Shown here piece after piece: positions 5,159 through 59,138 of a stretch of 64,000 nucleotides of DNA. Position numbers and translations under genes: made by a program. The notes beneath the pieces were generated by a model, which was given only the letters and a program-made list of their open reading frames with translations, was not told the DNA's origin and ran no database searches. Source of the DNA: an uncultured Paraprevotella sp. (GTDB lineage Bacteria > Bacteroidota > Bacteroidia > Bacteroidales > Bacteroidaceae); contig CALULA010000003.1 of NCBI GenBank assembly GCA_944321365.1, forward strand, positions 1-64,000, written 5' to 3'. Position 1 is the first letter of the stretch; every line of letters begins with the position of its first letter.

Positions 5159-5741
5159 GTGTCTCCGGAAGTGTACGGTCGCTGCGCAGGTCATTTCCTG
5201 CGTGGCGACTGCTTTTTTGTCCGTTACCGACCCTCGGCTGCGTGGCAGATGTTTATGGACGGGGGCGAGGCGGCCTTTTTTGTGCGCAAGACCTTCCGGA
5301 GTTTTGCGGGAGACTTTCTGGAGTCTTGCAGAATACTTTTCCCGTTTTTCCGCAAGAGATGCGGGGCGGCACGTGCCGTTCTTTACGGCCTGTGTGGCTG
5401 CTGTGCTACTGTCTGCAGGTGTGTAACCTGCTTGTTACATCCTGCGTTATGTGATTTTTCGGACCTTTTTCTGTTACATTCCCTTCCATTCTGTTTCCTT
5501 GTCGGGTTTTTGTGGGGAGTTATGGCTGCCGTTTGCGGACACAAATCGGGTGCGCTCCGGGCGTTTTTCTGTGTCTGGAAGTGCTTTTATATGCTAAAAT
5601 GTGCAAAATACACCCAAAGATTTTAGTCTGTCTAAATTAGCCGTATTCTTTTTATTCTTGTCTATTTTGTTGAGTGTCAGTTTGTTTTAATGGTTTTCGG
5701 GCGTCTAATTTAGTCAGACTCTCAGCCTTATTTTTTTAGTG
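5159..5741. other. Long non-coding gap with G/C hairpin motifs
   Basis: Open frames here give Cys/Phe-rich translations with no recognisable domain, so I treat the gap as non-coding. Between 5275 and 5357 it carries repeated motifs of the TTTGTGCGCAAG, TTTTGCGGG and TTTTTCCGCAAG type, which recur in the other large gaps of the window (near 31785-32165, 38058-38110 and 58924-59022). The 3' half is AT-rich and contains the inverted repeat at 5625-5720, just before the sigma-factor promoter. Confidence 0.6.
5625..5720. repeat. 16-bp inverted repeat (15/16) with 64-bp interior
   Basis: AGTCTGTCTAAATTAG (5625-5640) and CTAATTTAGTCAGACT (5705-5720) are inverted copies with one mismatch. The right arm ends 21 bp before the -33 element of the ECF sigma-factor promoter. 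Candidates are a paired operator, a recombinase-inverted switch, or the ends of a miniature element. No open frame lies inside. Confidence 0.6.
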
Positions 5742-5772
5742 TTTGTTTTTTGTTTTCTCCACTTTATCTTTG
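5742..5772 (+). promoter_or_regulatory. Promoter of the ECF sigma-factor gene
   Basis: TTTG at 5742-5745, a 19-bp spacer and TATCTTTG at 5765-5772 form an exact Bacteroidetes housekeeping promoter. Transcription would begin roughly 7-10 bp downstream. This excludes the longer reading frame that starts upstream at 5739 and supports the ATG at 5814. Confidence 0.8.
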
Positions 5773-5813
5773 TCCGCAGAATCATTCATCAACCATATTT
5801 AAAAGATAATACC

Positions 5814-6338
5814 ATGAACCCGACTTGTTCCATTGAATACATAGAAATCGTGACTCAGGCTTACAACCGCTATCGGAGTCATCTGGTGGCTTACATAGAA
5901 AAGCGGATCAACGATCATGATGCGGCAGAAGATTTTGTGCAAGATATTTTTTTCCGTCTGCTGGACAGTCAGATCCTGATTTGTGCGGCTACAGCCAGGT
6001 CTTATCTGTTCCTTATGGCGGGCAACATGGTCTGTGATTATTTCCGGCGGAGGCGGTGCCATGCGGAGATGCTCTCCTATATGTATGACGCCATACAGCC
6101 TGTCAGTCCCGCAACGGCAGACGCATGTGTGGACTGCAAGCGGCTGGCGCGGAACGAATGGCGGTGTGTGTGCGGCATGCCGCTGCAAAGGAAAGCCGTT
6201 TATATCATGAGCCGCTATGAGGGTCGGAAGATATCGGAGATAGCCGGGCTGCTGCATTTGCGTCCGCGTACGGTGGAGACTCATCTGTTCATGGGGCGGC
6301 GCGAGGTGCGCAGCCGTCTGAAGGCCATGGGGGTGTGA
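5814..6338 (+). CDS. ECF-family RNA polymerase sigma factor
   Basis: 174 residues from the ATG at 5814 (MNPTCSIEYIEIV). Region 2 lies around residues 20-85 (AYIEKRINDHDAAEDFVQDI, then AGNMVCDYFRRRR). Region 4 is a helix-turn-helix around 125-170 (QRKAVYIMSRYEGRKISEIA, then RPRTVETHLFMGRREVRSRL). This is the two-domain ECF layout. Bacteroidetes ECF factors that control Sus loci are normally followed by a FecR-type anti-sigma gene and paired with a SusC carrying an STN domain. Neither is present here: the next gene, 61 bp downstream, is a secreted protein, and both SusC proteins lack STN. The factor heads the long operon and may be controlled at transcription or by a distant anti-sigma factor; that is an inference. 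Confidence 0.92.
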   Translation: MNPTCSIEYIEIVTQAYNRYRSHLVAYIEKRINDHDAAEDFVQDIFFRLLDSQILICAATARSYLFLMAGNMVCDYFRRRRCHAEMLSYMYDAIQPVSPATADACVDCKRLARNEWRCVCGMPLQRKAVYIMSRYEGRKISEIAGLLHLRPRTVETHLFMGRREVRSRLKAMGV

Positions 6339-6399
6339 CAGAGAAAAGTGATTTTGCTATATATCAGATATCGTGATTATTAACTTAAATGTTTTACTT

Positions 6400-9036
6400 A
6401 TGAGAAAGAGAGACTTTTTTTGTGCGGCTCTTATCGCGCTGGGAGTGAACGTCTATGCGCAGGATCCGATCCACGGAGTCGACGGGTATTACAACTGGAC
6501 ACCCACGCAGCTCCAGGTGTCGAACGTGCTGGATGTGGGAGGCAATGGCAATAAGATGGCCGCATGGGCCCGTGAGTTCAAGTACACGGACGACATGCAG
6601 TATGCCAAACTGATTATGGGTATCAACAACACGAGCATCGAGGAGGAGAAGGGCGGTTTCAATTTCCGTTCTGAACTGGTCTTGAAAGAGAGTGCCACGG
6701 GGGCCGGTGTCATGACCATCACGCGGGCTTATCCGGTCATTGCTCTGAAGATTTCCGTGCCGCAGAATGATGAGGCTTCCGAGAATGTGAAGATCTCGGA
6801 CGGTTATTTCGAGCCGGAGTTCAGATGGTATAATCCGGGCACGGGGGTGGCGGAGAAACTGCCTCTGAACGGACTGGACGGCAATGGCCGCTATCGTTTC
6901 CTGCAGTATGGTGGTCCGCTGGTGGATGCTTTGGGGCGTGATTCTGTGCAACTGAACCGCGGCAACAACGGTGATGACGCCATCCGTGCTGCGAAAGCAG
7001 TGCATACGGAGTACAATGATACCATCTGGCGTCTGGTCCGTCTGGAACCCGGTGCGGACGAGCGAACGGAGTTCCTGCTGGCCATGGACCTGTCCACCAT
7101 CTGTGCCGAGGCGCAGGAAGGCGGCGGTGTGGTTTGTCTGGACACCACGGACATCAAGCTGAGCGGTTTCAGTATGGGATTCCTGGGCGTGTATGCAGAC
7201 ACTTTGGCGTATGAAATTGATGAAGCTGGCGAAACGATCAGTTCCCGTGTGAAGACTAAGGATGAGATGCCCACGGTTTATCTGAAGTGGATCAAGACCT
7301 TTGCCTCCATGGACGATTTCAACGCGTCGCTCACCGCAGAGAACAACTGGGGCGACGGCAAGGCTGTTGATCCGCAGAAGAGCGTGCTGAACAGTGCGCT
7401 GTATGATGCGATGACGTTCATTGCCAGCTATAAGTTCTCCGACAAGTTGGCCATATTGAACGATGCATATGATGCAGCCAAATCCGTGTATGACAATCCG
7501 GCGTCCACAAGTGCCGACTATACGGCTCAGGTGGAGGCACTGACAACGGCCAAGAATGATTTTCTGACGGCTATTGCCTTTGCCGGAGAGAACAACATGA
7601 ACACCATCATGAACTATCTTGGCATGTCGCTGGGCCTGTCGACAACGACCACGACAATAGGCAATTATACCGGAAAACAGCTGATGGCAGTGGGCCCGGA
7701 GAATGCCGCCGGCTTCCTGTTCATTGAAAGCGGAGATGTCAACGGTCAGAAGGCTTATAACCTGAAGACTGCCGACGGCACGCTGGTGCAGGCACAGGAC
7801 GGCACGCTGATGTTGGTGGACGCCAGCCAGCTGACGGGCAGCAATGCCGCCAATGTGGTGCTGGCCAACCGTGGTACGACGGACATGCCGGGATATGACA
7901 TGAAAGTGGGCAACTATTATTACTACATAGATGAAAGTACGGGCTTGCTCTCTGTCGCAGAAGAGGTGCCGACACCGGAGGTGGATATCAACGAGATAGC
8001 CGCTTATCTCTTCTTCCCGCAGGAAACGTCCTATGATCCGTCCGACCATGATGCGGTGAACTACCCGATGAGTGCGGGCGAAGGCAGCGCATGGGAATTC
8101 AACGGTGAGGTGGAGATGGCATTGGAGCCGGCTTATGCGGCCTCGTTCGAGATGTACAACTGGGATGCGGCCACCAAGGCCGTGGCTACGCAGCGGGCCA
8201 CGATTCCTTTCGTGGAAGGATGGAGCTGCAACGGTTACCGCCTGGGCACGAACCTGACCGTGGACAAGACTCTTGAGGACGGAGACGGTAACCCGATGAG
8301 CTGTCTGCGCCTGAACTGGATGGACACGTATGACAACATACATGCTGACTCCGTGTCTGTGGCAGAAGTGGTTACGGACTGGAGCGCAGGCACCCAGCAG
8401 CTGAGCATCATGCGTGAGCACGGAGCCTATACTTCAGCTCTGAACCGCGTGCCTCAGCCCAATCAGCTGTGCGATTCGCTCTATGCCATCAACATGAATT
8501 CCGGCATCAACCGCTACTTTGCCATGAAATGGAAAGGCAGCAATGCGAACCTGACGTTCAACGGCCTGACGTTCTTTGTGCGGAAGAATGTGGAGGAACC
8601 GGGTGTCGGTATGAACAATTTGCTGGAACAGCGTGGTGATGTCTATATCTGGGATCTGCTGGAGTGTGGCATACCTTTCGGCGACCGTAAGGCTTGCGCG
8701 CAGTACATGTCGTGGAATGGTGCTGCAAGTTCGGATGATGCCGTGTATGTGGACTGGATGCGTTTCTATGAAAATCTGGATGATATCCCGACGGAGTCCA
8801 TCGTTACTGCCATCAGTGATGTGGTTGCCGAGTCGGCCGACCTGAACGTGGCTGTCAGCGGTAACACCCTGCGCGTGTTCTGCAACGGTGAAGTGTCAGT
8901 CTATGCCGTCGACGGCAAGCAGGTGGCAGGCGGATATGCCGACGGCACAATCAGCTTCACACTGGGCAAAGGCATGTATGTGGTGAAGGCCACGGCCGGA
9001 AACCAGGTGGCAGTGAAGAAGATCCTGATGCAATAA
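6400..9036 (+). CDS. Large secreted protein with C-terminal sorting-like domain, 878 aa
   Basis: The ATG at 6400 gives a clean signal peptide (MRKRDFFCAALIALGVNVYAQ). An in-frame GTG at 6373 would add nine residues and spoil it. No catalytic family is recognised. The N-terminal half is beta-rich. A helical segment around residues 330-400 (FSDKLAILNDAYDAAKSVYD; YTAQVEALTTAKNDFLTAI) resembles FIVAR-like spacer modules. Residues about 540-805 form a second beta-rich region with many Trp/Tyr (VEGWSCNGYRLG; YVDWMRFYENLDD), as in carbohydrate-binding or lectin-like folds. The last 60 residues (VSVYAVDGKQVAGG to MYVVKATAGNQVAVKKILMQ) look like the type A C-terminal sorting domain. The position between the sigma factor and the FAS1 lipoproteins suggests a surface glycan-binding or structural role. 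No enzyme activity is claimed. Confidence 0.8.
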   Translation: MRKRDFFCAALIALGVNVYAQDPIHGVDGYYNWTPTQLQVSNVLDVGGNGNKMAAWAREFKYTDDMQYAKLIMGINNTSIEEEKGGFNFRSELVLKESATGAGVMTITRAYPVIALKISVPQNDEASENVKISDGYFEPEFRWYNPGTGVAEKLPLNGLDGNGRYRFLQYGGPLVDALGRDSVQLNRGNNGDDAIRAAKAVHTEYNDTIWRLVRLEPGADERTEFLLAMDLSTICAEAQEGGGVVCLDTTDIKLSGFSMGFLGVYADTLAYEIDEAGETISSRVKTKDEMPTVYLKWIKTFASMDDFNASLTAENNWGDGKAVDPQKSVLNSALYDAMTFIASYKFSDKLAILNDAYDAAKSVYDNPASTSADYTAQVEALTTAKNDFLTAIAFAGENNMNTIMNYLGMSLGLSTTTTTIGNYTGKQLMAVGPENAAGFLFIESGDVNGQKAYNLKTADGTLVQAQDGTLMLVDASQLTGSNAANVVLANRGTTDMPGYDMKVGNYYYYIDESTGLLSVAEEVPTPEVDINEIAAYLFFPQETSYDPSDHDAVNYPMSAGEGSAWEFNGEVEMALEPAYAASFEMYNWDAATKAVATQRATIPFVEGWSCNGYRLGTNLTVDKTLEDGDGNPMSCLRLNWMDTYDNIHADSVSVAEVVTDWSAGTQQLSIMREHGAYTSALNRVPQPNQLCDSLYAINMNSGINRYFAMKWKGSNANLTFNGLTFFVRKNVEEPGVGMNNLLEQRGDVYIWDLLECGIPFGDRKACAQYMSWNGAASSDDAVYVDWMRFYENLDDIPTESIVTAISDVVAESADLNVAVSGNTLRVFCNGEVSVYAVDGKQVAGGYADGTISFTLGKGMYVVKATAGNQVAVKKILMQ

Positions 9037-9058
9037 TGTGATTAATGGTGGTTAGCGG

Positions 9059-9096
9059 GAGAGGGCCTGCCTGGGCCTATGCCGGGAGGCCTTCTC
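9059..9096 (+). terminator. Intra-operon hairpin, possible attenuator
   Basis: GAGAGGGCCT (9059-9068) pairs with AGGCCTTCTC (9087-9096), 10 bp with one G-U pair, between the 878-aa gene and the first FAS1 gene. It is followed by a pyrimidine-rich CTTTCTCTTTC rather than a pure T-run. It could be a partial terminator or an mRNA-end stabiliser that sets different levels for the genes on either side. Confidence 0.5.
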
Positions 9097-9118
9097 CTTT
9101 CTCTTTCGGTCTCTTGAA

Positions 9119-11197
9119 ATGAAAAAACACAATAAAATGAAGAAACGATTGAAATTATTTATTGCGGGACTGGCCTGTATGCCGCTGTTGGGCCTGACAG
9201 GCTGTATGGACTCTGATGACGTCGGGGAGAACTACCGCACGTTCGAGGGGGAGATGATTTCCACGTATGTGTCCCGTCGTACGGAACTGAAAGAATTTGA
9301 AAAAGCATTGCGCATTGCTAATGCTTATGATTTGTTAGCCTCTTATGGAAAATACACTTGTTTCATGCCTACCGATGAGGCCATGCAGGCGTGGTATGCC
9401 TCTTCCGGCACAACGCTGGAGGATATGGACACCGCAGCCGTGCGCGAGATGGTCTACTATCATCTGATAGACGGTCAGGCCAATGCTGTAGACGCTTATC
9501 TGACAGAAGACTTTCCGGAAGGCTCTTTCCCCGTGCAGAACATGATAGGCCGCTATCTGACGGCTTCCGTGCGCACGGGTACGGGCGTGTGGAGCATCCG
9601 CACCGGAGAGGAATATGCCGACATCATAAATCCCAACAACGAACTGTTGAACGGCGTGGTGCATGTCATCAACAAGGTGTTGGAGGGCAATAACGATATG
9701 TTGCCCGATTTCGTGAGAAACAATCCGCGTTACTCCATCTTCGGGCAGGCCCTGGAGGTCACGGGCTGGCGTGACTCCATGATGGTGCTGGAGGACGCAA
9801 CTTATCAGCCGCCCTTGTCGACTACATTGCCTAACGGACAGGTGGTCGGCTCCTCGTCAACCGGCTATTATCAGTGGCCGACAACGAAAAAGTATCTTTA
9901 CACCTGTTTTGCCGAGAGCGATTCCATCATGAAATTGCGCGAGGGCATAGAGAGTCTGGACGACCTGCGGGACTATGCCAGAAGAGTCTATCCGGAGGGA
10001 GCCGACATCGAGGATGAGACCGATCCCCGCAACAGTCTGCATAAGTTCGTAGGCTATCACCTCTATGACGTGCAGCGGGCCAAGAACAAGCTGGTGGTGA
10101 ACAAATATTTCGTGTCCATGCACGACTGGTTCACGTGGTACGACCAGATCTGTGATGCGGATTATAAGGTGGAGCAGTATTACGTACCCATGCAGCCGGA
10201 CATGTTGCTTTCGGTGCAGAATGCCAATACGGTGGACAAGGATAACATTTCAGCCAGGGGCATTCCGGTGCTCAACTGTCCTTATTCGCCCTACAACCCG
10301 GCTTATACACAGGCGATTACAATGGAGGACACCTACGGCGGATGGCCCATTATCCGCGTGCTAGACGATGAGGCCGACCAGTATTGCCAAAATGGCGTGC
10401 TGCACGGACTGAACAACATGCTGGTCTATTCCGAAGAGGTCAAGGCCAACGTGTTCCACCGTCGTATGCGAATGGATGTGCGCACATTCATGTCCGAAGG
10501 TGTGAACAACGGAGTCATCTATGACGGTGACAAGGGATATAACTGGTATATTACGAGTTTTCCGGACGGTTATTTCAAGAATATAGATTTTACGTCCAAC
10601 AATACTACTTATATAACTTATGAGGGATGTACGCCGCACGACTATCTGCACGGTGACCATTTCTCCTTGTGCGGCAATTTCGACTTCACGATCAAGGTGG
10701 GCCCGGTGCCCAGAGGTTCCTATGAAGTGCGGCTGAGCTATTGTACGAATACCAGTCAGGGTGCTGTGGTGCAGGTCTACATGGACGGCACACCCTGCGG
10801 CATTCCCGTTGACTCGCGCATGGCGGCCTACTCTGGCGATACGGGCTGGATTCAGGACTGGCTGGCCATCCAGGAATCCGGCAGCAGCCGTTTTGCCGGG
10901 ATGGGCGAGAGCGAAGAGGATCCCTACGGACTGGAGAACGACAAGAACCTGCGCAACCACGGTTACATGAAAGCACCGAACAGCTATGTGGGGACTAACT
11001 ATCATAATTTGTCTTATGGCGACAATCTCACGGCGCGGAATGTGGACACCCGGTTGCGCAAGATTCTGGGCATCGTGAACTGGACGGAGGACGGGACGCA
11101 CGATCTGCGTATTGTGGCCATGCGCTCCGGATATTTTGAACTGGATTTCATAGAGTTCATGCCGACCGACTTGCTGGAGGACGAGGACCAGCATTGA
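9119..11197 (+). CDS. FAS1 (fasciclin) domain lipoprotein A, 692 aa
   Basis: The lipobox LTGC (signal peptide ending MPLLGLTGCMDSDD) marks an outer-membrane lipoprotein. The first FAS1 domain covers about residues 45-190, with the family hallmarks YTCFMPTDEAMQAWY, VYYHLIDGQ and GVVHVINKVL. A second, more divergent FAS1-like unit covers about 200-440 (LYTCFAESDSIM to NGVLHGLNNMLVY). A C-terminal beta-sandwich follows (about 450-680; GSYEVRLSYCTN, VQVYMDGTPCGIP, FELDFIEFMP) that looks carbohydrate-binding. Two ATG starts (9119 and 9137) are both compatible with the signal. FAS1 modules mediate adhesion. Within a Sus locus the likely role is as a surface glycan-binding protein of the SusE/F kind, though this is inferred from position. 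Confidence 0.87.
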   Translation: MKKHNKMKKRLKLFIAGLACMPLLGLTGCMDSDDVGENYRTFEGEMISTYVSRRTELKEFEKALRIANAYDLLASYGKYTCFMPTDEAMQAWYASSGTTLEDMDTAAVREMVYYHLIDGQANAVDAYLTEDFPEGSFPVQNMIGRYLTASVRTGTGVWSIRTGEEYADIINPNNELLNGVVHVINKVLEGNNDMLPDFVRNNPRYSIFGQALEVTGWRDSMMVLEDATYQPPLSTTLPNGQVVGSSSTGYYQWPTTKKYLYTCFAESDSIMKLREGIESLDDLRDYARRVYPEGADIEDETDPRNSLHKFVGYHLYDVQRAKNKLVVNKYFVSMHDWFTWYDQICDADYKVEQYYVPMQPDMLLSVQNANTVDKDNISARGIPVLNCPYSPYNPAYTQAITMEDTYGGWPIIRVLDDEADQYCQNGVLHGLNNMLVYSEEVKANVFHRRMRMDVRTFMSEGVNNGVIYDGDKGYNWYITSFPDGYFKNIDFTSNNTTYITYEGCTPHDYLHGDHFSLCGNFDFTIKVGPVPRGSYEVRLSYCTNTSQGAVVQVYMDGTPCGIPVDSRMAAYSGDTGWIQDWLAIQESGSSRFAGMGESEEDPYGLENDKNLRNHGYMKAPNSYVGTNYHNLSYGDNLTARNVDTRLRKILGIVNWTEDGTHDLRIVAMRSGYFELDFIEFMPTDLLEDEDQH

Positions 11198-11234
11198 CAA
11201 CGAAATGTATTTATATATAAACAGGAGGATAAAG

Positions 11235-13883: not shown

Positions 13884-13933
13884 GGCAGCGTGAGAGAGAT
13901 TGGATGGAAAATGAAGTAATTTGAACCAATGAC

Positions 13934-17209: not shown

Positions 17210-17232
17210 TTCTTCACTAAAAGTATTATAAA

Positions 17233-18795: not shown

Positions 18796-18809
18796 CAAAA
18801 AAGAGAATT

Positions 18810-20513: not shown

Positions 20514-20520
20514 TGATGTT

Positions 20521-23697: not shown

Positions 23698-23711
23698 ATT
23701 TGATTGGCGAT

Positions 23712-31608: not shown

Positions 31609-32450
31609 GTGACACTGGCGTGAGTCTGTGCCGATCGGGGCGGTGATATGCGGACGGGGGGGTGAGCGCGTGTCCGGAAAGAGACCTCGCAAATGCCGGA
31701 GCCGGTGCGCTGGCTCTCCTCGCGCGGCCCCCGGTGTCCTCCGTCAGGCGGTGTGTGTCATTTTGACAGAATGTCAGTCCTGCCCCGCAAAAGAACGCGT
31801 ATTTGCGGCCAAACGGACAACCGGCGGCAAATGCGCGATTCTCACGGGCTTCTGGTTTTTCACGTTGTCAGCTGAAAGCGGCTTTCACTTGACGCCTGTA
31901 CACACGCAGGGCGGGACGTGCGCAGAGAGCGGCGGGGCGCGTCAGCCATCGGTGCGTTCTGCTTTCTTTCTGACATGTCGGCGGAAGGCGTCTTCACGCT
32001 TCAATGAGGGAAAAAAGCGGCGAAAGGCACGGCTGAAACCTGCCTCGCGGACCGGTTGTTCCGGTGTTGCGGACAAGAATCCGGTTTTGTGCGCACAAAA
32101 CCGAGCGTCCTTGCTCACAAAAAAAGTGTTTCTTCCGCAACGCCGTCCGCGTCTTTCCGCAAAGAAAATCGCGCTTTTGCTTAAAGATAGTTAAAATACG
32201 CAGATAAATGTGAATGAATGTATAGAAAATCTTCCTGTTTAGAGCGGAATGCAGGGAGTACCCGTCAGTAAAAGCGGTAAAAGGGTTGCTTTTTGCCGCA
32301 GAAAATGAAGATTCAGTGACTCCCTGTTCTCTCCTTTTCCGGGGAATCCGACTTGGTTAAAAAAACCTTAATTCGTTGGTGTATGATTAAGTGTATCAGG
32401 CCATTCATCCGTATTAGGTTATGTGTAATTTGTTTAAAGTGGAGAATATC
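31609..32450. other. Long non-coding gap with palindromic motifs
   Basis: No credible gene is seen. An open frame at 31628-32194 is Arg/Cys/Lys-rich with no domain, signal or ribosome-binding site. The region carries several short motifs centred on TTGCGC, TTGCGG or TTCCGC (31785-31810, 32064-32165), including the perfect palindrome at 32082-32103. An 8-bp inverted repeat, CAGGGAGT (32252-32259) with ACTCCCTG (32319-32326), lies in the probable leader of the next gene. No convincing -33/-7 promoter was found. Confidence 0.6.
32082..32103. repeat. 22-bp perfect palindrome
   Basis: CGGTTTTGTGC is followed directly by its reverse complement GCACAAAACCG, with no loop. The central TTTGTGCGCACAAA is identical to the centre of the palindrome at 58987-59012. 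As a loop-free palindrome in a non-coding gap it looks more like a protein-binding or recombination site than a terminator. Confidence 0.8.
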
Positions 32451-37857: not shown

Positions 37858-38493
37858 GTAATAGGTTCTGGCTTTCGATAAATGATGTCTTTCTTTTCGG
37901 TGCAGGTTCAGTTCCAGAACCTGCATTGTAGGTCTCTGTCCTTGCAAATATAGTGTTTTTCTTTTGATTTGCGTGTAACGTCTGGCAGAAAAAAGAACAG
38001 AAACGTCCATGACGGTGTGGAAACAGAAACTGCCGTTCCGGTTTCTGCATACAAGTGTTGCGGAATGTGCGTTCCGGTCTTGCGGAAGACTGTCCGGGGG
38101 CTTGCGCAAGAAAAATCCGGTTTCCCCGCGGCGGTGCGGTGCGGTTATGGCAAAGAGGTGGCCGATGGAGGGGTTGCGGTTGATGGCCGGGCACCTTCTT
38201 TGGGGAGGCCTTTACTGTAGGAAATACTGTTAAAAAGTTGAAAATGCGGGGACTAAAGCGATAAACCGGAAAATGTTTATACGTGGATTTCTTGATTGAA
38301 ACGTATTCTTTATATAAATGTACAGACATCGGGTTGTGTCTGTACGTCTTTGCCGGGACGGAGAAGTGCCGGACAAGGAAAAGTGTGCCCGCGTCATCCG
38401 GAAGGGGCTGCCGCTGTGTGGCAAGATTTGAGTATGCGAATGATTTGGCGAGTCGGCATGCAGACTGTGCGTGAAACTGAAAAAAAACGAAAT
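37858..38493. other. Divergent control region between regulator and GH35 operon
   Basis: A 636-bp gap without a credible gene. It holds the regulator's -7 box (37945-37952) and TTGCGG/TTCCGG/TTGCGCAAG motifs (about 38058-38110), including the palindrome CTTGCGCAAG at 38101-38110. An AT-rich stretch at 38225-38330 could carry the GH35 promoter. I found no exact TAnnTTTG box on the plus strand, consistent with an activator-dependent promoter. Confidence 0.55.
37945..37952 (-). promoter_or_regulatory. -7 box for the SusR-like regulator
   Basis: The minus strand reads TATATTTG, an exact -7 match 87 bp upstream of the ATG at 37857. No -33 TTTG is visible. Confidence 0.5.
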
Positions 38494-40782: not shown

Positions 40783-40804
40783 AGATATTTTCAAAAAACA
40801 AAGC

Positions 40805-42991: not shown

Positions 42992-43091
42992 AAATATTAA
43001 AGCACATCTTATTAAAAGACTATGATGCAAAAGCTAATGACACATGAATTATTCGACTTTGTTTGGAACTTAAAATCAAAAACAGTTGAAA

Positions 43092-44807: not shown

Positions 44808-44828
44808 GACAAAGTGAAAACAAGTGAT

Positions 44829-47291: not shown

Positions 47292-47416
47292 TGCAAAGAC
47301 CGGGGCATCTGGACGGGAAATGAAGAACGTTATGGAAGAAGACTTTATTGAGTGAGCTTTATATGTTCGGGAAATTATGCCGGTAGTGGCTTCCCCGACC
47401 CGTATATATTAATGAA

Positions 47417-50400: not shown

Positions 50401-51253
50401 GGAGGGCTGGACCCATCTGGCTTTGGTCTATGACGCCGGAGTGCCGCAGTTGTATGTGAACGGTGAACCGGTGCAGGACGAGCAGGCTTCCGGGCGGAAT
50501 TGCATGCCGGCAGTCGACGTGCCGATGGCAGAAGAGCAGTTTATTGGCAGTTTCGAGGGCGACCAGACCCCCATGTCGGTGTTCGACTATGCCCTTTCTG
50601 CGGCAGAGGTCCGGACCGAAGCGGAAAAGGGGCTTCCCCTGCCGCCGTCATACGGGGTACTGTGGCGCGAACTGTCGGCAGACTGGCAGGTGGAGTTTCC
50701 GGCTTACAGCCATATACCGCATCCGGTTGTGCTCGACACGCTCCGTTCTCTCCACCGTCACACCGATTTTAATGTACGTCATTTTTCGGGAACGGCCACT
50801 TACAGTAAACGGTTGGTGTTGACAAAGTACGACCTCGAAGCATTGAACGGACACCGTGTCCTCTTGAATCTGGGGCGGGTGGAGAATCTGGCTGAGGTCA
50901 CGGTCAATGACTGCGACACCCAGCTGGTCTGGAAAGCACCTTATGTGGCGGACATTACAGGGAAACTCCGTGAGGGTGACAATGTCGTTGTTGTCAGAGT
51001 GACCAATCTCTGGCCCAACCGCATCATCGGCGATGAGCATCTGCCCGATCCGTACCTATATGACGAGTATGGCAGAATACGACTTTTGCCGGAGTGGTTT
51101 TTTGGAGAACAGGCAAATGAGCGGGAACGTGTGTTGTTCTTGCCTTGGAAGTATTATACCCGTGAATCTCCGCTGTTGGAGTCGGGACTGGTCGGTCCGG
51201 TCCGGCTGGAACTGGCCGACAGGCGGGGATGTTTCTCGGCATGCCGGATGTGA
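47417..51253 (+). CDS. Glycoside hydrolase family 106-like alpha-L-rhamnosidase with LamG-type module
   Basis: 1278 residues with signal peptide (MLLWLACSVAVGLSAQ within the first 30 residues). The GH106 catalytic region is recognised from RPSTYWQWMNGNITKAGLTL, LSLHNSPGYSGTGGPWI, YVGEAYGDGNFESLELASRQ, VVACECYTGTPF and MTAGVNRFVYHAMAHQPYAG. Around residues 930-1050 there is a LamG/concanavalin-like insert (FTLCCWVKPETF; GWTHLALVYDAGVPQLYVNG; VFDYALSAAEV). A C-terminal galactose-binding-like domain at about 1100-1270 (VENLAEVTVNDC; VVVVRVTNLWPNRIIGDE) is normal for the family. GH106 removes terminal alpha-L-rhamnose with Ca2+. The LamG insert is not typical and may target a particular polymer. 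Confidence 0.9.
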   Translation: MKSKRVTNNVVRNMLLWLACSVAVGLSAQVDVRAFQNPPQQARPSTYWQWMNGNITKAGLTLDLEYMARSGYGSAMIFDTGVGIPRGGVDYNSPQWTEAVEHAMREAGRMGLRLSLHNSPGYSGTGGPWIPVELSMKQLMWTDTFVVSDGREALDVRLPRPCSRQDFYRDACILAYPSLPGEVRSFWSMVRRLSIDGCPLERSVLSDHNLSTQCRMESGESLLFELQEAFELQAATLYRGEREKPLDPHDGPRDYPPVLRVEVSLDGKEFRPVGAFRCSALRAMDTPGTFSCPPVKARYVRLTTNRGTNLAEVDFHASPRLSDYAPKINAANAPVVLPGNFPATPADGAVSSGAVVDVTGRTDADGRLLWPAPPGRWTIVRIGYTTTGEVVAAAPDAGIGLECDKMSPDGVDCHIERFLIPLLERLKPWCGSTLESLVVDSWEAGKQNWTEGLIALFRQKRGYDPVPYLLAVTGRIVDGTETTERFLYDFRRTHTDLFLENYVDRFRACISRYGLEYVGEAYGDGNFESLELASRQDIPMSEFWTHYIYGNITTTMMASSVAHVLDKPVVACECYTGTPFNSKFTEHPYGMKALGDYIMTAGVNRFVYHAMAHQPYAGEQPGNIMTMGPFGTHLDRNSTWSEQFSALNLYNARCAYLLQQGHYVADVLYLKDECISSGVRNYNMDEPVTPYGYRWDVTLASLLRERAVVRGGCLELPGGMSYRLLVVPPMERTTPETLSLLTEWVRQGLSVLLAGELPSGYLGLDEQKDRAVRALADTLWSASVLGKGRIYRETGVGEALREMGIRPDFAFVAEHNDAQIHFIHRQTVAEDIYFVANHRRRAERLQVACRTTGRVPRLWNAETGQTELPVEYEVRDGLTRLNLVLPESGSVFIVFSKGKQEPTDLPPVSVQATVVRTNHGDSYGFSPEHDFRSTFTLCCWVKPETFAAAGRGFLLYPDKGRMGKASVGVSVGQNGVRVVERDTGLHTVLEYEGALEGWTHLALVYDAGVPQLYVNGEPVQDEQASGRNCMPAVDVPMAEEQFIGSFEGDQTPMSVFDYALSAAEVRTEAEKGLPLPPSYGVLWRELSADWQVEFPAYSHIPHPVVLDTLRSLHRHTDFNVRHFSGTATYSKRLVLTKYDLEALNGHRVLLNLGRVENLAEVTVNDCDTQLVWKAPYVADITGKLREGDNVVVVRVTNLWPNRIIGDEHLPDPYLYDEYGRIRLLPEWFFGEQANERERVLFLPWKYYTRESPLLESGLVGPVRLELADRRGCFSACRM

Positions 51254-51325
51254 CGGAGGGCAGTGCCCCGCAGGACGGCAGGCTTTTGCTTGCATAATAT
51301 GAATGGAAACTAAAAACAGATAAGA

Positions 51326-53995
51326 ATGAAACGAACTTTTCTTTGGATGACAGCACTGTGGATGCTGGCTTTTGCCGGTGTCGGTGCTGTCGGTGAATGT
51401 GTGGCGGCATCGTGCCGTCCGTCGATGTACGTATCAGCTTCCGACAGGGAAGCCATACGGGAACGGGTGGCCCGTGTGCCTTGGGCAAAGAAAGCCTTTG
51501 CCCGCATACGCGGACAGGTTGAGCCATATGCCGACCGGCATGTGCAGGATCCGCAGTGGATTGTGTCGCGTCTGGCGATGTATTGGAAAGCCGGAGAGCA
51601 CTATACCCAGTGCTATCTGAAGGGCCAGAACTGGGACCGTGGCGAGGGCAATGCGCCTGTTCCGACGGTCCGTATGCCGGGAATGCGGACGTGGAACAAG
51701 TATCAGAATGTGCCTCTTGCCGATCGCACGCCTTATAATGAGACCGGAGACATGTGGGGCGTCAGCCGGCAGGACCCGGATGCTCCGCCGGTGCTGGTTC
51801 CTTATAAGCAAAGCGGACACATGATACGCAGCAACAACGTGGAGATACTGACCTTGGCCGAGAACGCCGCTTTTGTCTATTGGGTGAGCGGTGAGGAGAA
51901 ATTCGCCCGCTTTGCGGCAGACATATTCAACACCTGGCTGGCAGGCACTTACTACATGCAGCCCATTCTGGATCCGGAGAAGTCTTGCGGAAGTGTGGGC
52001 GGCTGGGCACCCGGCGGCATCTGCGGCTATTATGATTATGAACAGATACACGACGATCTGGCATTGCATGCCGCGGCGGCGTATGATTTTCTCTACGACT
52101 GGCTGGCTGTCCATCCTCACCCGCATTTCAAGGAGGTCGGGCTGACCACGCGTGCCGCAGCGGAAACCGTATTCCGGCGTTTTATTGAAATCGGTCTGGT
52201 GCGTGGCGGACGAGAGGGCAACTGGAATGTGAACGGCTGGAACATGATGTTGCGTCCGATCCTGACCCTGGACAGCGACACTGCCTATGCCGACGGAAAA
52301 GGACGGGAGTATTATCTGAACTTCCTGTTGCGGCAGTCTACGGACTATCATGAGGCTATCCCGGACATTCTGGCAAGCTATGACAGCGTGACGGGGCTAT
52401 GGCCGGAGGCACCGGGCTACGCGTTCGGCACGGTGCAGGTGCTGTTGGACTGGGTCGTTCCGCTCCAGCGTTCTGGGGCAGACATTATGGCGGGAAATCC
52501 GGTCCTGGCGAAAGCTGCCATGGCGGTGTTTCCCTGGATGGATGAAAGGGCCAATCTCGTGGCGTTCGGCGATTCCCGCGGCGGCCCGGTGGACTTCAGG
52601 ATGTTCGAGCGTCTGCTGACTTATTACACAGCCTGCGGCAACCGCGAGGAGGCGGGGAGGGCTGCCGCTGCCTTGCGGCGCGGAATAGCCATGGGTACGT
52701 ACGACCGCTCTTCGGCCGACTGGACGGGCATCTGTACGTTCGTGCCCGAACTGCCTCTTGCCGACGGGGTGAAATCCGAACGTACGTCCTATTCGCCTTT
52801 CCATCGTTTCATCATCATGAAAAACTGGGATGCGCCTTATGGTATGATGGCTTGCCTCTATGGCGGGCGGAAGGGCAGTCACCTGACGCCCAACGGGCTG
52901 GCACTGCAGTTTTATGGCTTCGGTTATGCGCTGGTGCCGGACGCGGCGGGGTATGAGTCTTATTGGAGTGCCGATCATGGTTATCACCAGTCGGTGACCG
53001 GATCGAATACCATCATTCCCGGATATACGGCGGGAGAGATAGAGGTGAATGCCATGGAGCCGCAGGTGGAATCCGGACAGTTTGTCAACACCGAGGCCCT
53101 GACCGATGTCGTGAACTTCGCGGATGTGTCGGCTGATGAGAAAAGGCGTACGGTTGCTTTGGTAAGGACGTCGGAGCATACGGGTTACTATGTGGACGTG
53201 TTCCGCTCAAACCAGCCGGATAATGACTATCTGTTCCATCATGTGGGAGATTCCATGCGGCTGTCCGACGCTGAGGGGCGGTCATTGCAGCCTGTCCCGG
53301 TGGAGCGGATGCAGAAAAAGTACACGGGCGGTTACGACAGCTTCAGCCGGTTGTCTTCTCTTGCGTATGACGGTGACTTCGTGGCGGAGTGGACGCTGCC
53401 GGAAGGCATTGCCGCGCGGTTGTGGATGACCGGAGCCGGGGGACGCGAACTGTTCCGGATGGATGCTCCGTCCAGCACGCTGAACAAGGGGCTGACGCCG
53501 GGCAATGCGAGCACTCCGCCTCAGCCTACGCCGGTGCTGCTGGTCCGTCAGGATGGCAATAATGCCGCCGCACATCCGTTCGTCGGTGTGTATGAGGCTT
53601 ACCGCAACGGGCGGCCTTCTGTTACGGCTGTGAGCGCTTTGCCTGCGGCGGACGGCGGATGGTCCGGAGTGAAAGTGCAGACGGGTGAGGTATGCCGGGA
53701 TTATGTGTTCAGTGCCGTCGACACGCTGCAACATCGTTTGCCGCAGGAGGGTGCCTTCCGTGGCTGTTTTGGGCTGGTGCGTCTGCGTGATGGTGCCCCC
53801 GACCTTCTTTATATAGGTAAAGGGCGTAGCGTGAGCTGGGGAGAACTGTCGGTGACGGCGGACACTGATGTGTATGCAGCCCTGTTCCGCCGCGACGGCA
53901 AATGGTATTATTCAGCCACGGGGCCCGTGCATATCCGCATCGGGCAGGACGCTCGCCGCTTGCCGTCTGCTACGTTCTGCCCGTTGGGGGAGTGA
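51326..53995 (+). CDS. Heparinase II/III-like polysaccharide lyase fold protein, 889 aa
   Basis: Signal peptide MKRTFLWMTALWMLAFAGVG. Residues about 35-440 form an (alpha/alpha) toroid (SGHMIRSNNVEILTLAENAA; NWNVNGWNMMLRP; YAFGTVQVLLDWV). Residues about 470-885 form the beta-sheet half typical of heparinase II/III (ERTSYSPFHRFIIMKNWD; YWSADHGYHQSVTGSNTI; GYYVDVFRSNQP). Conserved Asn/His/Tyr/Arg positions of this fold are present, but I cannot pick the catalytic ones with certainty. The fold is shared by several lyase families acting on uronic acids, including rhamnosyl-glucuronate lyases of arabinogalactan degraders, which would fit the GH106/GH43/GH35 context; that match is inference. Some homologues are hydrolases. 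Confidence 0.8.
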   Translation: MKRTFLWMTALWMLAFAGVGAVGECVAASCRPSMYVSASDREAIRERVARVPWAKKAFARIRGQVEPYADRHVQDPQWIVSRLAMYWKAGEHYTQCYLKGQNWDRGEGNAPVPTVRMPGMRTWNKYQNVPLADRTPYNETGDMWGVSRQDPDAPPVLVPYKQSGHMIRSNNVEILTLAENAAFVYWVSGEEKFARFAADIFNTWLAGTYYMQPILDPEKSCGSVGGWAPGGICGYYDYEQIHDDLALHAAAAYDFLYDWLAVHPHPHFKEVGLTTRAAAETVFRRFIEIGLVRGGREGNWNVNGWNMMLRPILTLDSDTAYADGKGREYYLNFLLRQSTDYHEAIPDILASYDSVTGLWPEAPGYAFGTVQVLLDWVVPLQRSGADIMAGNPVLAKAAMAVFPWMDERANLVAFGDSRGGPVDFRMFERLLTYYTACGNREEAGRAAAALRRGIAMGTYDRSSADWTGICTFVPELPLADGVKSERTSYSPFHRFIIMKNWDAPYGMMACLYGGRKGSHLTPNGLALQFYGFGYALVPDAAGYESYWSADHGYHQSVTGSNTIIPGYTAGEIEVNAMEPQVESGQFVNTEALTDVVNFADVSADEKRRTVALVRTSEHTGYYVDVFRSNQPDNDYLFHHVGDSMRLSDAEGRSLQPVPVERMQKKYTGGYDSFSRLSSLAYDGDFVAEWTLPEGIAARLWMTGAGGRELFRMDAPSSTLNKGLTPGNASTPPQPTPVLLVRQDGNNAAAHPFVGVYEAYRNGRPSVTAVSALPAADGGWSGVKVQTGEVCRDYVFSAVDTLQHRLPQEGAFRGCFGLVRLRDGAPDLLYIGKGRSVSWGELSVTADTDVYAALFRRDGKWYYSATGPVHIRIGQDARRLPSATFCPLGE

Positions 53996-54081
53996 GCAGG
54001 AAAGCTGCCGGATGTAAAAGGTAAGGTGTGACAGAGCACATGGACATATTCATAAATGAGTTAGATTAAAAAGAACGTGTT

Positions 54082-55704
54082 ATGAAACATTTGCGTAAAA
54101 TATGGTTGATTTGTTGCTGTTGTCTGGCGGTGAGCCTTTCAGCAGCAGAGTGGCAATGGTCTGTGCCCGTAACGGAGATGGTGTCTCCCGAAACGGACGG
54201 CCATCCGCAGGCTTTTCTCTGGATTCCGTCCGACTGTCAGGCGGTGAAAGCCGTGATGGTTGGCACGCACAACATGACGGAAGAAACCCTGTTCGAGAAT
54301 CCTCTGTTCAGGGAGGAACTGCGTAAGGCGGGCATCGCGCTGGTGTGGGTCACACCCGGACTGGACATGGCTTGGGATGTGTCCAACGGCTGCCAGAAAG
54401 CGTTCGACCGCATGATGGCCGACCTGGCCGAGGCCAGCGGATATGTCGAAGTGGCCACGGCCCCGGTGGTGCCCGTGGGGCATTCCGCCATGGCCACTTT
54501 CCCCTGGAACTTTGCCGCCTGGAACCCGGAGCGCACGCTGGCCGTCATCTCCCTGCACGGCGATGCGCCGCGCACGAATCTGACGGGCTACGGACGCGCG
54601 AATCTGGAGTGGGGACGCACGCGCAACATCGACGGCATACCGGGACTGATGATAGAAGGGGAGTATGAATGGTGGGAGGCCCGCGTCACGCCGGCACTGG
54701 CCTTCCGCATGATGTACCCAGAGAGTTGCATCTCGTTCCTGTGCGATGCCGGGCGCGGGCATTTCGACATCGCCGACCGTACGGCCCTCTACATCGCCCG
54801 CTTCCTGCAGAAAGCCCTGGAATACCGTCTGCCGGAGGGTACACAACCCACGGACACCGTTCCGGTCCGCCTCAAGAAGCTGGATCCCGAAGAGGGCTGG
54901 CTGGCGCAACGGTGGTGCCCGGCACCGGCCAAGCGGGCCAAGGCCGCACCGTTCCACCGTTACAAAGGAGACCCGCATGACGCATTCTGGTACTTCGACC
55001 GTGAGATGGCCGAACTGACAGAAGCCATCTACCGCGAGGAGTGGGACCTCCGTCCGCAGTACGTCTCCTGCCTGCAGGACGGCCAGCTGGCGCATTATAA
55101 TCCACAGTCGCACGTAAAAGTGTCCGTACCCTTCCGCCCGGAAGCCGACGGACTGACCTTCCACCTGAAAGCCGTCTACGTGGACAGCACGAGGGCAAGG
55201 CTGGCAGAGGACGGTGAGCATTCCACCGCACGCCCCGTCATCACCCGCATCAACGGTCCGGTGCGGCAGGTGGACGACACCACCTTTGCCGTCAGCTTCT
55301 ACCGCATGGGGATGCACAACCGCCGCCGCACGGGCGGCATCACGCTGGTGGCCGTGGGCGGACGGGACGCCCGCCACAAGGAGACCGTGCAGGAAATCGG
55401 AATGGAGATACCTTATCGGAACACGGAAGGGCGGCGTCAGCATATTCTGTTCCCCGGAATAGACGATGTGCGCGAGGGAACCGACAGCCTTGTGCTGAAC
55501 GCTGTTTCCGACTGCGGACTGCCGGTAAGCTACTACGTCAAGGAGGGGCCGTGCGAGATAGAGGGTAATGTGTTGCGCCTGACGGACATGCCGCCCCGTG
55601 CAAAGTTCCCCGTCAAGGTCACGGTCGTGGCCTGGCAGTACGGTCTGGCCGGAAAGGTGCGCACGGCAGAGCCTGTGGAACGCACGTTCCATATCGTCCG
55701 TTGA
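54082..55704 (+). CDS. Secreted alpha/beta-hydrolase, esterase-like, 540 aa
   Basis: Signal peptide MKHLRKIWLICCCCLAVSLSAA. The alpha/beta-hydrolase core, about residues 25-270, has a nucleophile elbow (PVVPVGHSAMATFPW, Ser near residue 135) and a plausible catalytic His in CDAGRGHFDIAD near 229. The acid residue cannot be fixed. Residues about 285-540 form two beta-rich units (VKVSVPFRPEADGLTFHLKA; VVAWQYGLAGKVRTAEPVER) that look like Ig-type or substrate-binding modules. In this operon a carbohydrate esterase removing acetyl, methyl or feruloyl groups is the likeliest role. No known esterase family is claimed. Confidence 0.78.
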   Translation: MKHLRKIWLICCCCLAVSLSAAEWQWSVPVTEMVSPETDGHPQAFLWIPSDCQAVKAVMVGTHNMTEETLFENPLFREELRKAGIALVWVTPGLDMAWDVSNGCQKAFDRMMADLAEASGYVEVATAPVVPVGHSAMATFPWNFAAWNPERTLAVISLHGDAPRTNLTGYGRANLEWGRTRNIDGIPGLMIEGEYEWWEARVTPALAFRMMYPESCISFLCDAGRGHFDIADRTALYIARFLQKALEYRLPEGTQPTDTVPVRLKKLDPEEGWLAQRWCPAPAKRAKAAPFHRYKGDPHDAFWYFDREMAELTEAIYREEWDLRPQYVSCLQDGQLAHYNPQSHVKVSVPFRPEADGLTFHLKAVYVDSTRARLAEDGEHSTARPVITRINGPVRQVDDTTFAVSFYRMGMHNRRRTGGITLVAVGGRDARHKETVQEIGMEIPYRNTEGRRQHILFPGIDDVREGTDSLVLNAVSDCGLPVSYYVKEGPCEIEGNVLRLTDMPPRAKFPVKVTVVAWQYGLAGKVRTAEPVERTFHIVR

Positions 55705-55846
55705 CCGCAAGGCGTGCGGCATATTTTCCGAAAAAATCACCCGGCGGATTACGTGGAACGTCACGCCTGTCCGTATTATATATAGGTAAGGGCTTCCGGA
55801 AGCATAGCGGCGGCCCGTCTGCAAACGAATCATAAACCAGAAGAAT

Positions 55847-58800
55847 ATGGCGAGAAACAAGATGCTAAAGGCGATGCTGGCCCTGGGGCTGCTGGCATCG
55901 GTGCAGTTGTCTGCACAGAAAAGACAGTTCGTACATCCGGGAATCACCTACACACAGGCCGACCTGGACCGCATGAAGGCCATGGTGGAGGCACGGCAGG
56001 AACCGTTCTACACCACCTATCAGGCCCTGCTGAAGGATAGCTATTCACAGCCCGGCAACGGCAACTACGAGGACATCACGCAAATCAAGGAGGGCAGATT
56101 CAACGCCACCATCGGCAGTGACGGACGCCGGGCGCACGACATGGCCCTGCTCTATCACATCACCGGCAACAAGGCTTATGCCGACGATGCCGTGAAGCGG
56201 CTGAACCGTTACAATCATCTGACCAACGCCAGCAGCCGGGGCACGGCTCCGTTGGACAACGGCAAGATATACATGCTTATAGAAGCCGCCGAGCTTTTGC
56301 GCGACTACGAGGGCTGGAAGGCCGAGGATCAGGAGGCGTTCAAGCGTATGCTGGTCTATCCGTTCTACAGCACGAAACGGGACGCCAACGCTTATAAGTC
56401 GTCGACGGACGATGAGAACGGCGTGACCTTCTACTGGAACATCTATAATTTCGACCCCGGACGTTTCGGCAATCAGGGACTGTTCGCCGCACGCGGACTG
56501 ATGGCCATGGGCATTTATCTGGACAACGACACGATGTACGACCGGGGATACCGTTATCTGACGGGGCAGCCTGCACGCCCCGACGACCTGCCTTACCAGC
56601 CGGGACCGCCCGTGCAGGGCAGTCTGATCAGCGAAGACGAGTTCAAGTGCGACTACAATGTGACGTGGCCTGCCGAAGGCGAGGAGTATCATTCCGACGA
56701 GGCATTGCAGTATTACATCTACCGCAACGGACAGTGTCAGGAATCCTGCCGCGACCAAGGCCATACGATGGGCGGCATCGGCAACTACACCGCCATTGCC
56801 GAGATGGCCTGGAACCAGGGCGACACCTTATACAGCATGTTGGACAACCGCATCCTGAAGGGAATTGAGTTCAACATCCGCTACAACCTGTCGGCACTGG
56901 AGTCCTTCCCCGACCAGCCGCAGCCTTGGGAGCCTACGGGATATACCAAGAACGAAGAGGAATGCTCGTTCGAGAACGGCAAGTTCTATCAGGCCGTGAG
57001 CCGCTCCAAACGTTGGGAAGCCAGGAGCATGGCGTCGGGCGACCGCGGCAATGTGTTCGGCACGGGCGGATGGAAGACGCAGGCCCTGGAGCACTACCGT
57101 GTGCGTGCCGCACTGCCGGAGGCCGACATGATATGGCTGCAGCGGGCGTATGACAAGATGATGGCCGACTACGGGCTGGAAAACTGGGGCGTGGCTCCCA
57201 ACTGGTATTATGAATGGGCCGGATGGGGAACGCTGACCAAGAAACGCACCGACTGGATGGCCGGAGACGCCGGAACGTGGCAGGACGGGCGGCGCGTGCC
57301 GGGCATGCCAGAGGCACCCTGCACGCTGGCGGCTGCCGACTACGACTATTATGCCGGTGACGGAGAGATGCACACCTATCACAACATCGGAACACAGCCC
57401 GGCACCGTCTACCGTACGGACGGCGCCGTGGAACTTGCCCAGGACGGCAGTGACGTCTACGTGACCGGCATGAAGAGCGGCGAGTGGATGAGCTACACAA
57501 TGGTGTTCCCCGCCCCGTCGGGCAATCTGCAGGCCGGACCGGAACAGAAGTACAACGTCTATGCCACCTACCGCGCATCGGAGGACGGCGCGAAGCTGTT
57601 TGTGTCGGTGGACGGCGGAGAGAAGCGCGGAAAAGAGCTTCAGGCATCCTCCGGCTGGACGGAAAAGCTGCTGGGCACGCTGACCGTGAAATGCGGGGCG
57701 GCCGTGCTGCGGGTTTACGTGCAGGGCAAGGATGACGTGGCCGAACTGAAAAGTCTGCGGGTGGAACCGTTGGAGACGGCGGAGCTGCAGGCGGTGAATC
57801 TGACGGAACGGGCCACATCGGTGAAAGTCTACGACGCGAACGGGAATGACAAGACATCGGAATCAGAGGCTGCTGTGAAGGCGGCCTCTGATGGTGATAA
57901 GGGGACGCCGATAAATCTGAGGAACCAGTATTTTCTGGTCTACGACTTCGGCGAGGAGGGGCTGGACCTGAACGAAGTGGCTTTCTATAACGACGGGGTG
58001 ACGCAAGACACGCGGGAGCAGGCCAAGGTGCTGGGCAACACGGCGGACGGACCCTATACCGGCGAATGGAATCAGAGTCAGGCCTCCGACATCATGCGCA
58101 CGAACGGGAACATCTATCAGGACATCCCGGTGATGGAGAACAGCTGGGTGACGGAGGGCGGTGCGCAAGGTTGCTACCGTGTAGGCCCGGTGGGGCGGTA
58201 CCGCTATCTGGCCGTCTACAACTGGTCGGCCTACGCCCGCATGTCAGAAGTGGAGGTGCGGTCGGTGGTCGGCACGCAGGTGGAAGAGCCTGATGCGGAG
58301 CCGTCGGCACCGTGGGACGGGCTGCCGGAACTGAAGTTGAGTACTTCCGGTTGGTATGCCGGGAATGTAAAGACCGGAACGGTGGCGGAATCGCCGCTCT
58401 TCCGGCTGGAGAATACGGGCGACGCAGACCTGGAGATTCTGTCCGTGACGCCTCTCGCGGCTCCCTGGAGCACATCGTTCGATGCGGAACTGCCGCTGAC
58501 GCTGGCCCCCGGAAGCGGTTACGACTTCACGTTCTCTTTCTCACCGTCGGCAACCGGCGTGTTTGAGCGATACTTCAGTGTGACCACCAGTGCCGGGACA
58601 GCTGCGGTGCGCCTGGGTGGCGATGGCGTGAACATCGTGGGCATCCGGGACAGCCGGGCCGATGCGGGCGTAACGGTGCGGGTGGATGCCGGGGCACGTT
58701 GTGTCCGTCTCTCGGCTGCTGTTGCGGTGTCCTACCGTTTGGTGGGGCTGTCCGGTCAGGTGTGGCGTCAGGGCCGGCTTGCCGCAGGCGAGGATGTGCG

Positions 58801-58882
58801 GGTGGAATTGCCCGGCGGCGTCAGTCTGGTACATGTAACCTCTGCTGTCGGCACGGTGATGCGTAAGGTCGTGCTGCCCTGA
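55847..58882 (+). CDS. Alginate-lyase-like protein with CBM6 and C-terminal sorting-like tail, 1011 aa
   Basis: Signal peptide at MLKAMLALGLLASVQLSAQ. Residues about 25-490 are an alginate-lyase-type (alpha/alpha) barrel (HPGITYTQADLDRMKAMVEA; CQESCRDQGHTMGGIGNYTA; NWGVAPNWYYEWAGWGTLTK), as in the PL5/PL38-like proteins of Bacteroidetes. Residues about 495-640 form a CBM6-like beta-sandwich (YYAGDGEMHTYHNIG; SGEWMSYTMVFPAP; KYNVYATYRASEDG). Then come an F5/8-type discoidin-like domain (about 650-805), an Ig-like segment with DUF1573 flavour (PLFRLENTGDADLEILSVTP) and a sorting-like tail (YRLVGLSGQVWRQG to RKVVLP). Likely a uronate-polymer lyase (glucuronan or arabinogalactan glucuronate) with its own binding modules. 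The catalytic His/Tyr assignment is not certain. Confidence 0.83.
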   Translation: MARNKMLKAMLALGLLASVQLSAQKRQFVHPGITYTQADLDRMKAMVEARQEPFYTTYQALLKDSYSQPGNGNYEDITQIKEGRFNATIGSDGRRAHDMALLYHITGNKAYADDAVKRLNRYNHLTNASSRGTAPLDNGKIYMLIEAAELLRDYEGWKAEDQEAFKRMLVYPFYSTKRDANAYKSSTDDENGVTFYWNIYNFDPGRFGNQGLFAARGLMAMGIYLDNDTMYDRGYRYLTGQPARPDDLPYQPGPPVQGSLISEDEFKCDYNVTWPAEGEEYHSDEALQYYIYRNGQCQESCRDQGHTMGGIGNYTAIAEMAWNQGDTLYSMLDNRILKGIEFNIRYNLSALESFPDQPQPWEPTGYTKNEEECSFENGKFYQAVSRSKRWEARSMASGDRGNVFGTGGWKTQALEHYRVRAALPEADMIWLQRAYDKMMADYGLENWGVAPNWYYEWAGWGTLTKKRTDWMAGDAGTWQDGRRVPGMPEAPCTLAAADYDYYAGDGEMHTYHNIGTQPGTVYRTDGAVELAQDGSDVYVTGMKSGEWMSYTMVFPAPSGNLQAGPEQKYNVYATYRASEDGAKLFVSVDGGEKRGKELQASSGWTEKLLGTLTVKCGAAVLRVYVQGKDDVAELKSLRVEPLETAELQAVNLTERATSVKVYDANGNDKTSESEAAVKAASDGDKGTPINLRNQYFLVYDFGEEGLDLNEVAFYNDGVTQDTREQAKVLGNTADGPYTGEWNQSQASDIMRTNGNIYQDIPVMENSWVTEGGAQGCYRVGPVGRYRYLAVYNWSAYARMSEVEVRSVVGTQVEEPDAEPSAPWDGLPELKLSTSGWYAGNVKTGTVAESPLFRLENTGDADLEILSVTPLAAPWSTSFDAELPLTLAPGSGYDFTFSFSPSATGVFERYFSVTTSAGTAAVRLGGDGVNIVGIRDSRADAGVTVRVDAGARCVRLSAAVAVSYRLVGLSGQVWRQGRLAAGEDVRVELPGGVSLVHVTSAVGTVMRKVVLP

Positions 58883-58923
58883 CTTTTCAATTGAATTTAT
58901 TTTTACATTTCAGAAAACTGTTC

Positions 58924-58975
58924 CCGGCTTTGCGGAAAACGAGACCCGTTTGTGCGCAAAGCCGGAGCTTTTTTT
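58924..58975 (+). terminator. Rho-independent terminator of the second enzyme operon
   Basis: CCGGCTTTGCG (58924-58934) pairs exactly with CGCAAAGCCGG (58955-58965) around a 20-nt loop, followed by AGC and a run of seven T (58969-58975). Placed 42 bp after the stop at 58882, it ends the GH35-to-lyase operon. Its arms contain the TTTGCG/CGCAAA motif seen in the other gaps. Confidence 0.8.
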
Positions 58976-58986
58976 CCGCAAGACCG

Positions 58987-59012
58987 CAGTCGTTTGTGCG
59001 CACAAACGACTG
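58987..59012. repeat. 26-bp perfect palindrome
   Basis: CAGTCGTTTGTGC (58987-58999) is followed directly by its exact reverse complement GCACAAACGACTG. The central TTTGTGCGCACAAA matches the palindrome at 32082-32103. It lies 12 bp beyond the terminator T-run, so it is not simply part of that terminator. Confidence 0.85.
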
Positions 59013-59138
59013 TGATTTTGCGCTCGGTTGTATCTATTTGATATAAAGTCTTTTATGAGAATGCCGGATGTCGGTGCCCGTTCTATCGTGAAGATGGAAA
59101 ATGTTTTACAGATTAACGATACCGGTGTCCGTACGCCC

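Follow-up and report, generated by a model that had tools for sequence, protein, structure and literature searches.

Four phased arrays in the window

The window, i.e. the whole stretch of 64,000 bp that was analysed (contig C3, positions 1 to 64000), belongs to a 2.74-Mb genome (G000) encoding a fumarase 97% identical to that of Paraprevotella clara, and contains numerous carbohydrate-use genes. Four arrays are found in it, each made up of three to five palindromic sites with a centre-to-centre step of exactly 22 bp (Table 1). The window was scored with a site profile (PWM) derived from the rest of the sample: the 3-unit scores of the four arrays range between 33 and 59, against a maximum of 11.3 in the complemented window, the value of 33 being that of array 1, where the outer two sites are strong and the inner two decayed. 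Array 4 lies in a convergent gap, the flanking genes ending at 58882 (+) and 59139 (-). A search of the window against Rfam matched no RNA family.

Table 1. Arrays and shared palindrome centres in the window. For each array, the positions of the site centres and the PWM scores of the single sites are given in order.
Feature	Position	Sites	Centres	PWM scores	Remarks
Array 1	5277..5360	four, 18 bp each	5285/5286, 5307/5308, 5329/5330, 5351/5352	18.0, 9.0, 6.4, 16.5	
Array 2	32062..32167	five	32070/71, 32092/93, 32114/15, 32136/37, 32158/59	11.4-16.6	steps exactly 22 bp; site at 32092/93 is the 22-bp palindrome
Array 3	38053..38114	three	38061/62, 38083/84, 38105/106		
Array 4	58925..59030	five	58933/34, 58955/56, 58977/78, 58999/59000, 59021/22	15.9, 20.4, 18.8, 19.7, 7.7	site at 58999/59000 is the 26-bp palindrome
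TTTGTGCGCACAAA	32086..32099				centre of the 22-bp palindrome
TTTGTGCGCACAAA	58993..59006				centre of the 26-bp palindrome

The original prediction rested on two perfect palindromes, of 22 and 26 bp, with a common 14-bp centre, TTTGTGCGCACAAA. Both were found at the positions given, and the genome contains 10 copies of the 14-mer, against none for its reversed control. The related motif TTGCGSAA, also expected to be in excess, is present 17 times in the window, where shuffles predict 5.84; none of 100 shuffles reaches 17. The clustering of half-sites proposed for the large gaps stands in part: the intervals 5275-5357, 32070-32165, 38058-38110 and 58924-59022 consist of units of the four arrays, while 31785-31835 holds one weak, unphased site only, and six of the 14 distinct TTGCGSAA places fall outside the named gaps. 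The decisive features, namely the 22-bp register, the even spacing and an order-wide architecture with species-specific sequence, had been missed.

Register and copy number across the genome

Pairs of TTGCGSAA spaced by 22 bp, with at most one mismatch, number 348 genome-wide, and none is found for the reversed pattern. Exact TTGCGCAA pairs at 22 bp (140) and three consecutive cores (306) likewise have controls of 0. Further analyses were based on stretches amounting to about 17% of this genome and 15% of that of the congener G007. The autocorrelation of the 6-mer TGCGCA in 464 kb gives 52 at lag 22 over a background of 0.12, and in a 400-kb stretch outside the window 30 chains of at least three sites are found at lag 22, and not one at lags 19-21 or 23-25; thresholds for the scans were chosen by hand, all lags being treated alike. 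A strict palindrome-only scan (5/6 pairs, three centres) was too insensitive, missing most known arrays. The 464-kb sample contains 33 arrays, from which a total of about 195-200 per genome, or roughly one per 10-13 kb, may be extrapolated.

Anatomy of the sites

The 122 units of the 33 arrays define the symmetric profile CGKTYTTGCGCAARAMYG, in which the core T[GC]CG[GC]A is near-invariant. Symmetric positions are each conserved without covariation. The idea that selection or a copying process keeps the arms complementary finds no support in these units, in which no excess complementarity was detected (all p > 0.05), or in those of G007, in which complementarity at symmetric positions is below expectation. 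Since the arms do not covary, the sites are better read as two half-sites contacted independently by a dimer than as a hairpin. A hairpin kept by compensatory change was ruled out in both genomes, complementarity not exceeding what column composition predicts. The perfect palindromes of 22 and 26 bp represent the extremes of a distribution shaped by symmetric half-site preferences.

Site-like sequence continues in register past the called ends of the arrays, with mean scores of -8.2, -17.8 and -19.1 at +22, +44 and +66, against a baseline of -26.5 (sd 1.8) at out-of-register offsets; the register of the G007 arrays decays outwards in the same way. Spacers of different arrays are mostly unrelated, similar ones being slightly in excess. 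In a BLAST comparison among 40 arrays of this genome, matches cover mainly the site arrays, with the exception of one element of about 590 bp. This non-coding dispersed repeat surrounds array 2 (window positions 31757-32341) and was also seen at about 1222-1843 of locus L010 and about 41371-41985 of contig C1; the three copies are 68-71% identical, and their likeness to other arrays is confined to the array part. A MITE was considered as well, and rejected: G007 arrays show no target duplication, and copies have no homologous body, save for the three-copy element.

Genomic context and spacing

The intergenic bias originally noted is upheld in the larger sample, where 32 of the 33 arrays fall between genes and no gap holds more than one (genes were called by a simple codon-usage caller, with approximate start positions). 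Sixteen of these 32 lie in convergent gaps, against 6.3 expected (p ~3e-4), and three in divergent gaps, against 9.1 (p 0.008); in G007, 17 arrays are found in convergent gaps against 7.1 expected (p 3e-4). Arrays also keep apart from each other. In random draws of gaps matched in number and type, 21% of spacings are expected to be shorter than 4 kb, against 3% observed (p 5e-4), and the coefficient of variation of the spacing is 0.60 instead of 0.91 (p 0.003). The same holds in G007, whose motif is largely different: 2.5% of spacings fall below 4 kb, against 24% expected (p below 2.5e-4). All p values come from several tests and are reported as computed singly.

One array (C1:131139-131470, locus L141) is located just downstream of rho, with an AraC-type regulator on its other side, and the orthologous gap of G007 also holds an array. 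In G007 a 44-kb array-free stretch was noticed on a contig with low coding fraction (C9:14.5-58.3 kb); it is possibly an acquired island yet to gain arrays.

The convergent bias would be expected of bidirectional transcription terminators, or 3'-end insulators, between convergent genes, and the RNA of the arrays folds better than shuffles (mean z -2.75 in this genome, -6.2 in G007 and -6.8 in G012). Fold stability is, however, a by-product of repeated palindromes, the stems in this genome are about 4 bp long and do not covary, and a 22-bp step is not demanded by termination. In addition, arrays occur about once per 10-13 kb and almost never within 4 kb of each other despite available neighbouring convergent gaps, an exclusion which argues against one terminator per gene pair. 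We consider this explanation improbable. The chances are smaller still, indeed slight, that the arrays are operators of an ordinary transcription factor with a large regulon: symmetric palindromic sites are typical of HTH dimers, but the promoter-bearing divergent gaps are those in which arrays are depleted.

Arrays in other Paraprevotella genomes

None of 17 congeners contains the TTGCGCAA pair at 22 bp, and among 43 other genomes a single one has it, with one match. Arrays of G007 are built of GTACT-TTGCGGMA-AGTAC units, 45 arrays being found in 503 kb, none within a called gene; genome-wide, the GTACT-type pattern is counted 354 times in G007 (forward strand), 13 times in G001 and never in G000. 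The motif of G001 is TTTCTTGCCGCAAAGAAA, and two families are present together in that genome. In G012 and G014 the motif is GAACGAAAAATCGTTCGGCTGA (71 and 48 occurrences), which has a count of 0 in G000, G001 and G007. A TTGC-like core is common to the motifs of G000, G007 and G001, and missing from that of G012 and G014. Other congeners contain further palindromes, with fewer examples. A long palindromic element of the AAGTAAGATATCTTACTT type is common to G017 (locus L182) and G009 (locus L184).

Orthologous gaps were compared by anchoring synteny with 20-kb DNA queries, as BLAST of the first random stretches from relatives against this genome had given no overlap. The convergent gap at C1:62363-62482 holds an array in all five Paraprevotella genomes compared, with three motif types: TTGCGCAA in G000, the GTACT type in G007 and G001, and the GAACGAAAAATC type in G012 and G014, the first two having a TTGC-like core in common. 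Gaps occupied in both genomes, in G000 only, in the other only, or in neither number 3/3/4/59 for G007, 2/1/0/45 for G012, 1/3/1/43 for G001 and 1/2/1/33 for G014. Sharing is above chance for G007 (three shared, with six occupied in G000 and seven in G007 among 69 gaps) and G012 (two shared, with three and two among 48). Positional conservation is thus suggested by these alignments, although shared occupancy is modest and partly due to the common preference for convergent gaps.

The turnover of motifs also bears on whether the arrays are strong DNA gyrase sites, with phased contacts along the ~130-150-bp wrap where convergent transcription accumulates positive supercoils. What is known of gyrase wrapping, BIME-2 and topological domains matches the fading of the register within about 66 bp on each side, the convergent bias and the ~10-kb spacing. 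Gyrase is nevertheless highly conserved and of weak specificity, while the array sites are specific and differ between congeners in a manner not easily explained by such an enzyme; this reading appears quite improbable.

Motif-blind scan of Bacteroidales

Non-coding DNA was scanned for tandem and palindromic self-similarity, with no motif supplied. A peak at lag 22 was obtained in G000 (12, other lags at most 2), in congeners (18, at most 4), in 80 named Bacteroidales loci (22, at most 10) and in other Bacteroidales (8, at most 4). The peak is missing from other orders of the class (1), other classes of the phylum (0) and Escherichia coli K-12 (0), in sets of 146-165 kb each, where rare arrays could escape. 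Strong matches show a different palindrome in each species, such as TTAACCGTTAATCGCAACGCAT in Hoylesella pleuritidis and TTACACGNACGTGTAA in Bacteroides caecigallinarum. Searches of the open-access literature yielded no account of palindrome arrays with a 22-bp step in this order.

Among the named loci (L035-L114), lags 20, 21 and 23 are somewhat raised, to 5, 8 and 10, against 1-5 mostly elsewhere, so that a step of 23 bp, or a mixed one, may exist in certain lineages, which recalls the 23-nt repeats of BrickBuilt. Arrays of TGCGCA or TSCGSA with a 22-bp step were also observed in genomes of other Bacteroidales families: in G122 the arrays at C1:95.4 and 107.8 kb have different spacers, while the units in G311 (C1, C2, C23, C24) and G044 (C16, C25) resemble homologous copies.

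Interpretation

The fixed register, the symmetric profile without covariation, the outward decay, the intergenic and convergent bias, the over-dispersion and the order-wide recurrence with different sequences are tentatively best explained by regarding the arrays as phased platforms for a putative cooperative dimeric DNA-binding protein organising the chromosome, an explanation to which we grant somewhat less than an even chance. Here protein binding, oligomerisation and the chromosome-level role are what we infer. One dimer would occupy each palindrome, and the invariant step, close to two helical turns, would allow adjacent dimers to touch and assemble in register, most strongly in the middle of the array and more weakly outwards, across a further two to three decayed sites per side. 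Some 200 platforms of this kind, mutually spaced and placed in gene-free, promoter-poor gaps with a preference for convergent pairs, would organise the chromosome through topological-domain or nucleoid anchoring. The architecture would be kept across Bacteroidales, the recognised sequence being replaced from species to species. Among the identities originally offered, a dispersed extragenic palindrome family proved appropriate, and a nucleoid or regulator site fits best.

Two points speak against phased platforms. Shared occupancy of orthologous gaps is modest, as noted above, and it is difficult to see how some 200 arrays could follow a change of code unless they were copied; copying does occur to some extent, the array at 32092 being contained in the ~590-bp element, which has versions with about 70% identity at two other loci. 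The main rival, which we hold to be rather unlikely, is a REP/BIME-like dispersed repeat without host function, spread by copying and surviving only in harmless places (gaps and 3' ends); its spacing would result from an immunity-like effect of the copying machinery, and its families would be replaced between species. The lineage-specific families, the two families held at once by G001 and the repeated element around array 2 all speak for it. Purifying selection would likewise produce avoidance of genes and promoters, and REPs themselves favour 3' regions that are convergent or unidirectional (PMC3733652). On the other hand, a REP-associated transposase, which the original proposal had suggested looking for, was not found: Y1_Tnp/RAYT is absent from G000, G001 and G007, and a PF01797 search gave no match in G000 and identified one in a single genome out of 18 of the genus. 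Furthermore, no consistent target-site duplication flanks the G007 arrays, most spacers of G000 are unshared between arrays, small excess aside, and a selfish element has no reason to maintain one 22-bp register order-wide on unrelated sequences. Both phased platforms and a dispersed repeat are more probable than terminators, gyrase sites or ordinary operators.

In its broader form, the platform reading would have phased arrays occur about every 10 kb along Bacteroidales chromosomes, as sites of a conserved organising protein. The DNA specificity of this protein would turn over between congeners, giving each species a private address code on a common 22-bp architecture. We regard this extension as possible, though doubtful. 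If true, it would be a bacterial counterpart of the rapidly evolving codes of satellites or centromeres, with a predicted DNA-binding protein co-evolving with hundreds of sites. Bacteroidales count among the dominant bacteria of the gut, and their chromosome organisation has, to our knowledge, been little studied; the arrays could offer a handle on chromosome domains, foreign-DNA recognition and species typing from intergenic DNA.

Comparison with known systems

The arrays resemble the REP/PU elements and BIMEs of E. coli and Pseudomonas (GTAG- and CGTC-tagged REPs) in being short extragenic palindromes, clustered and present in hundreds of copies, and belong with them as high-copy extragenic short palindromic repeats. 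They differ in lacking a RAYT, a GTAG/CGTC tag and arm covariation, and in having invariant 22-bp centres, mostly unrelated spacers, a lineage-specific sequence and an exclusion below 4 kb.

The BrickBuilt MITE/minisatellite of Porphyromonas gingivalis is also an intergenic Bacteroidales element with tandem units of similar length; it consists of 23-nt repeats without spacers, in 19 copies with homologous leader and tail and inverted ends (PMC4596501). The arrays described here fall outside that definition, with a 22-bp step, non-homologous spacers, about 200 copies by extrapolation, and neither leader nor tail.

Helically phased direct arrays are shared with plasmid iterons and centromere (parC/parS) arrays. 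Those arrays bind a cooperative protein, and are located at a single origin or partition locus by a Rep or Par gene, whereas 33 dispersed arrays are found here in 464 kb. Finally, matS, SBS/NBS and KOPS are chromosome-organising single sites of conserved sequence, dispersed and non-randomly distributed. The arrays are dispersed and non-random too, but they are phased, and their sequence changes between congeners.
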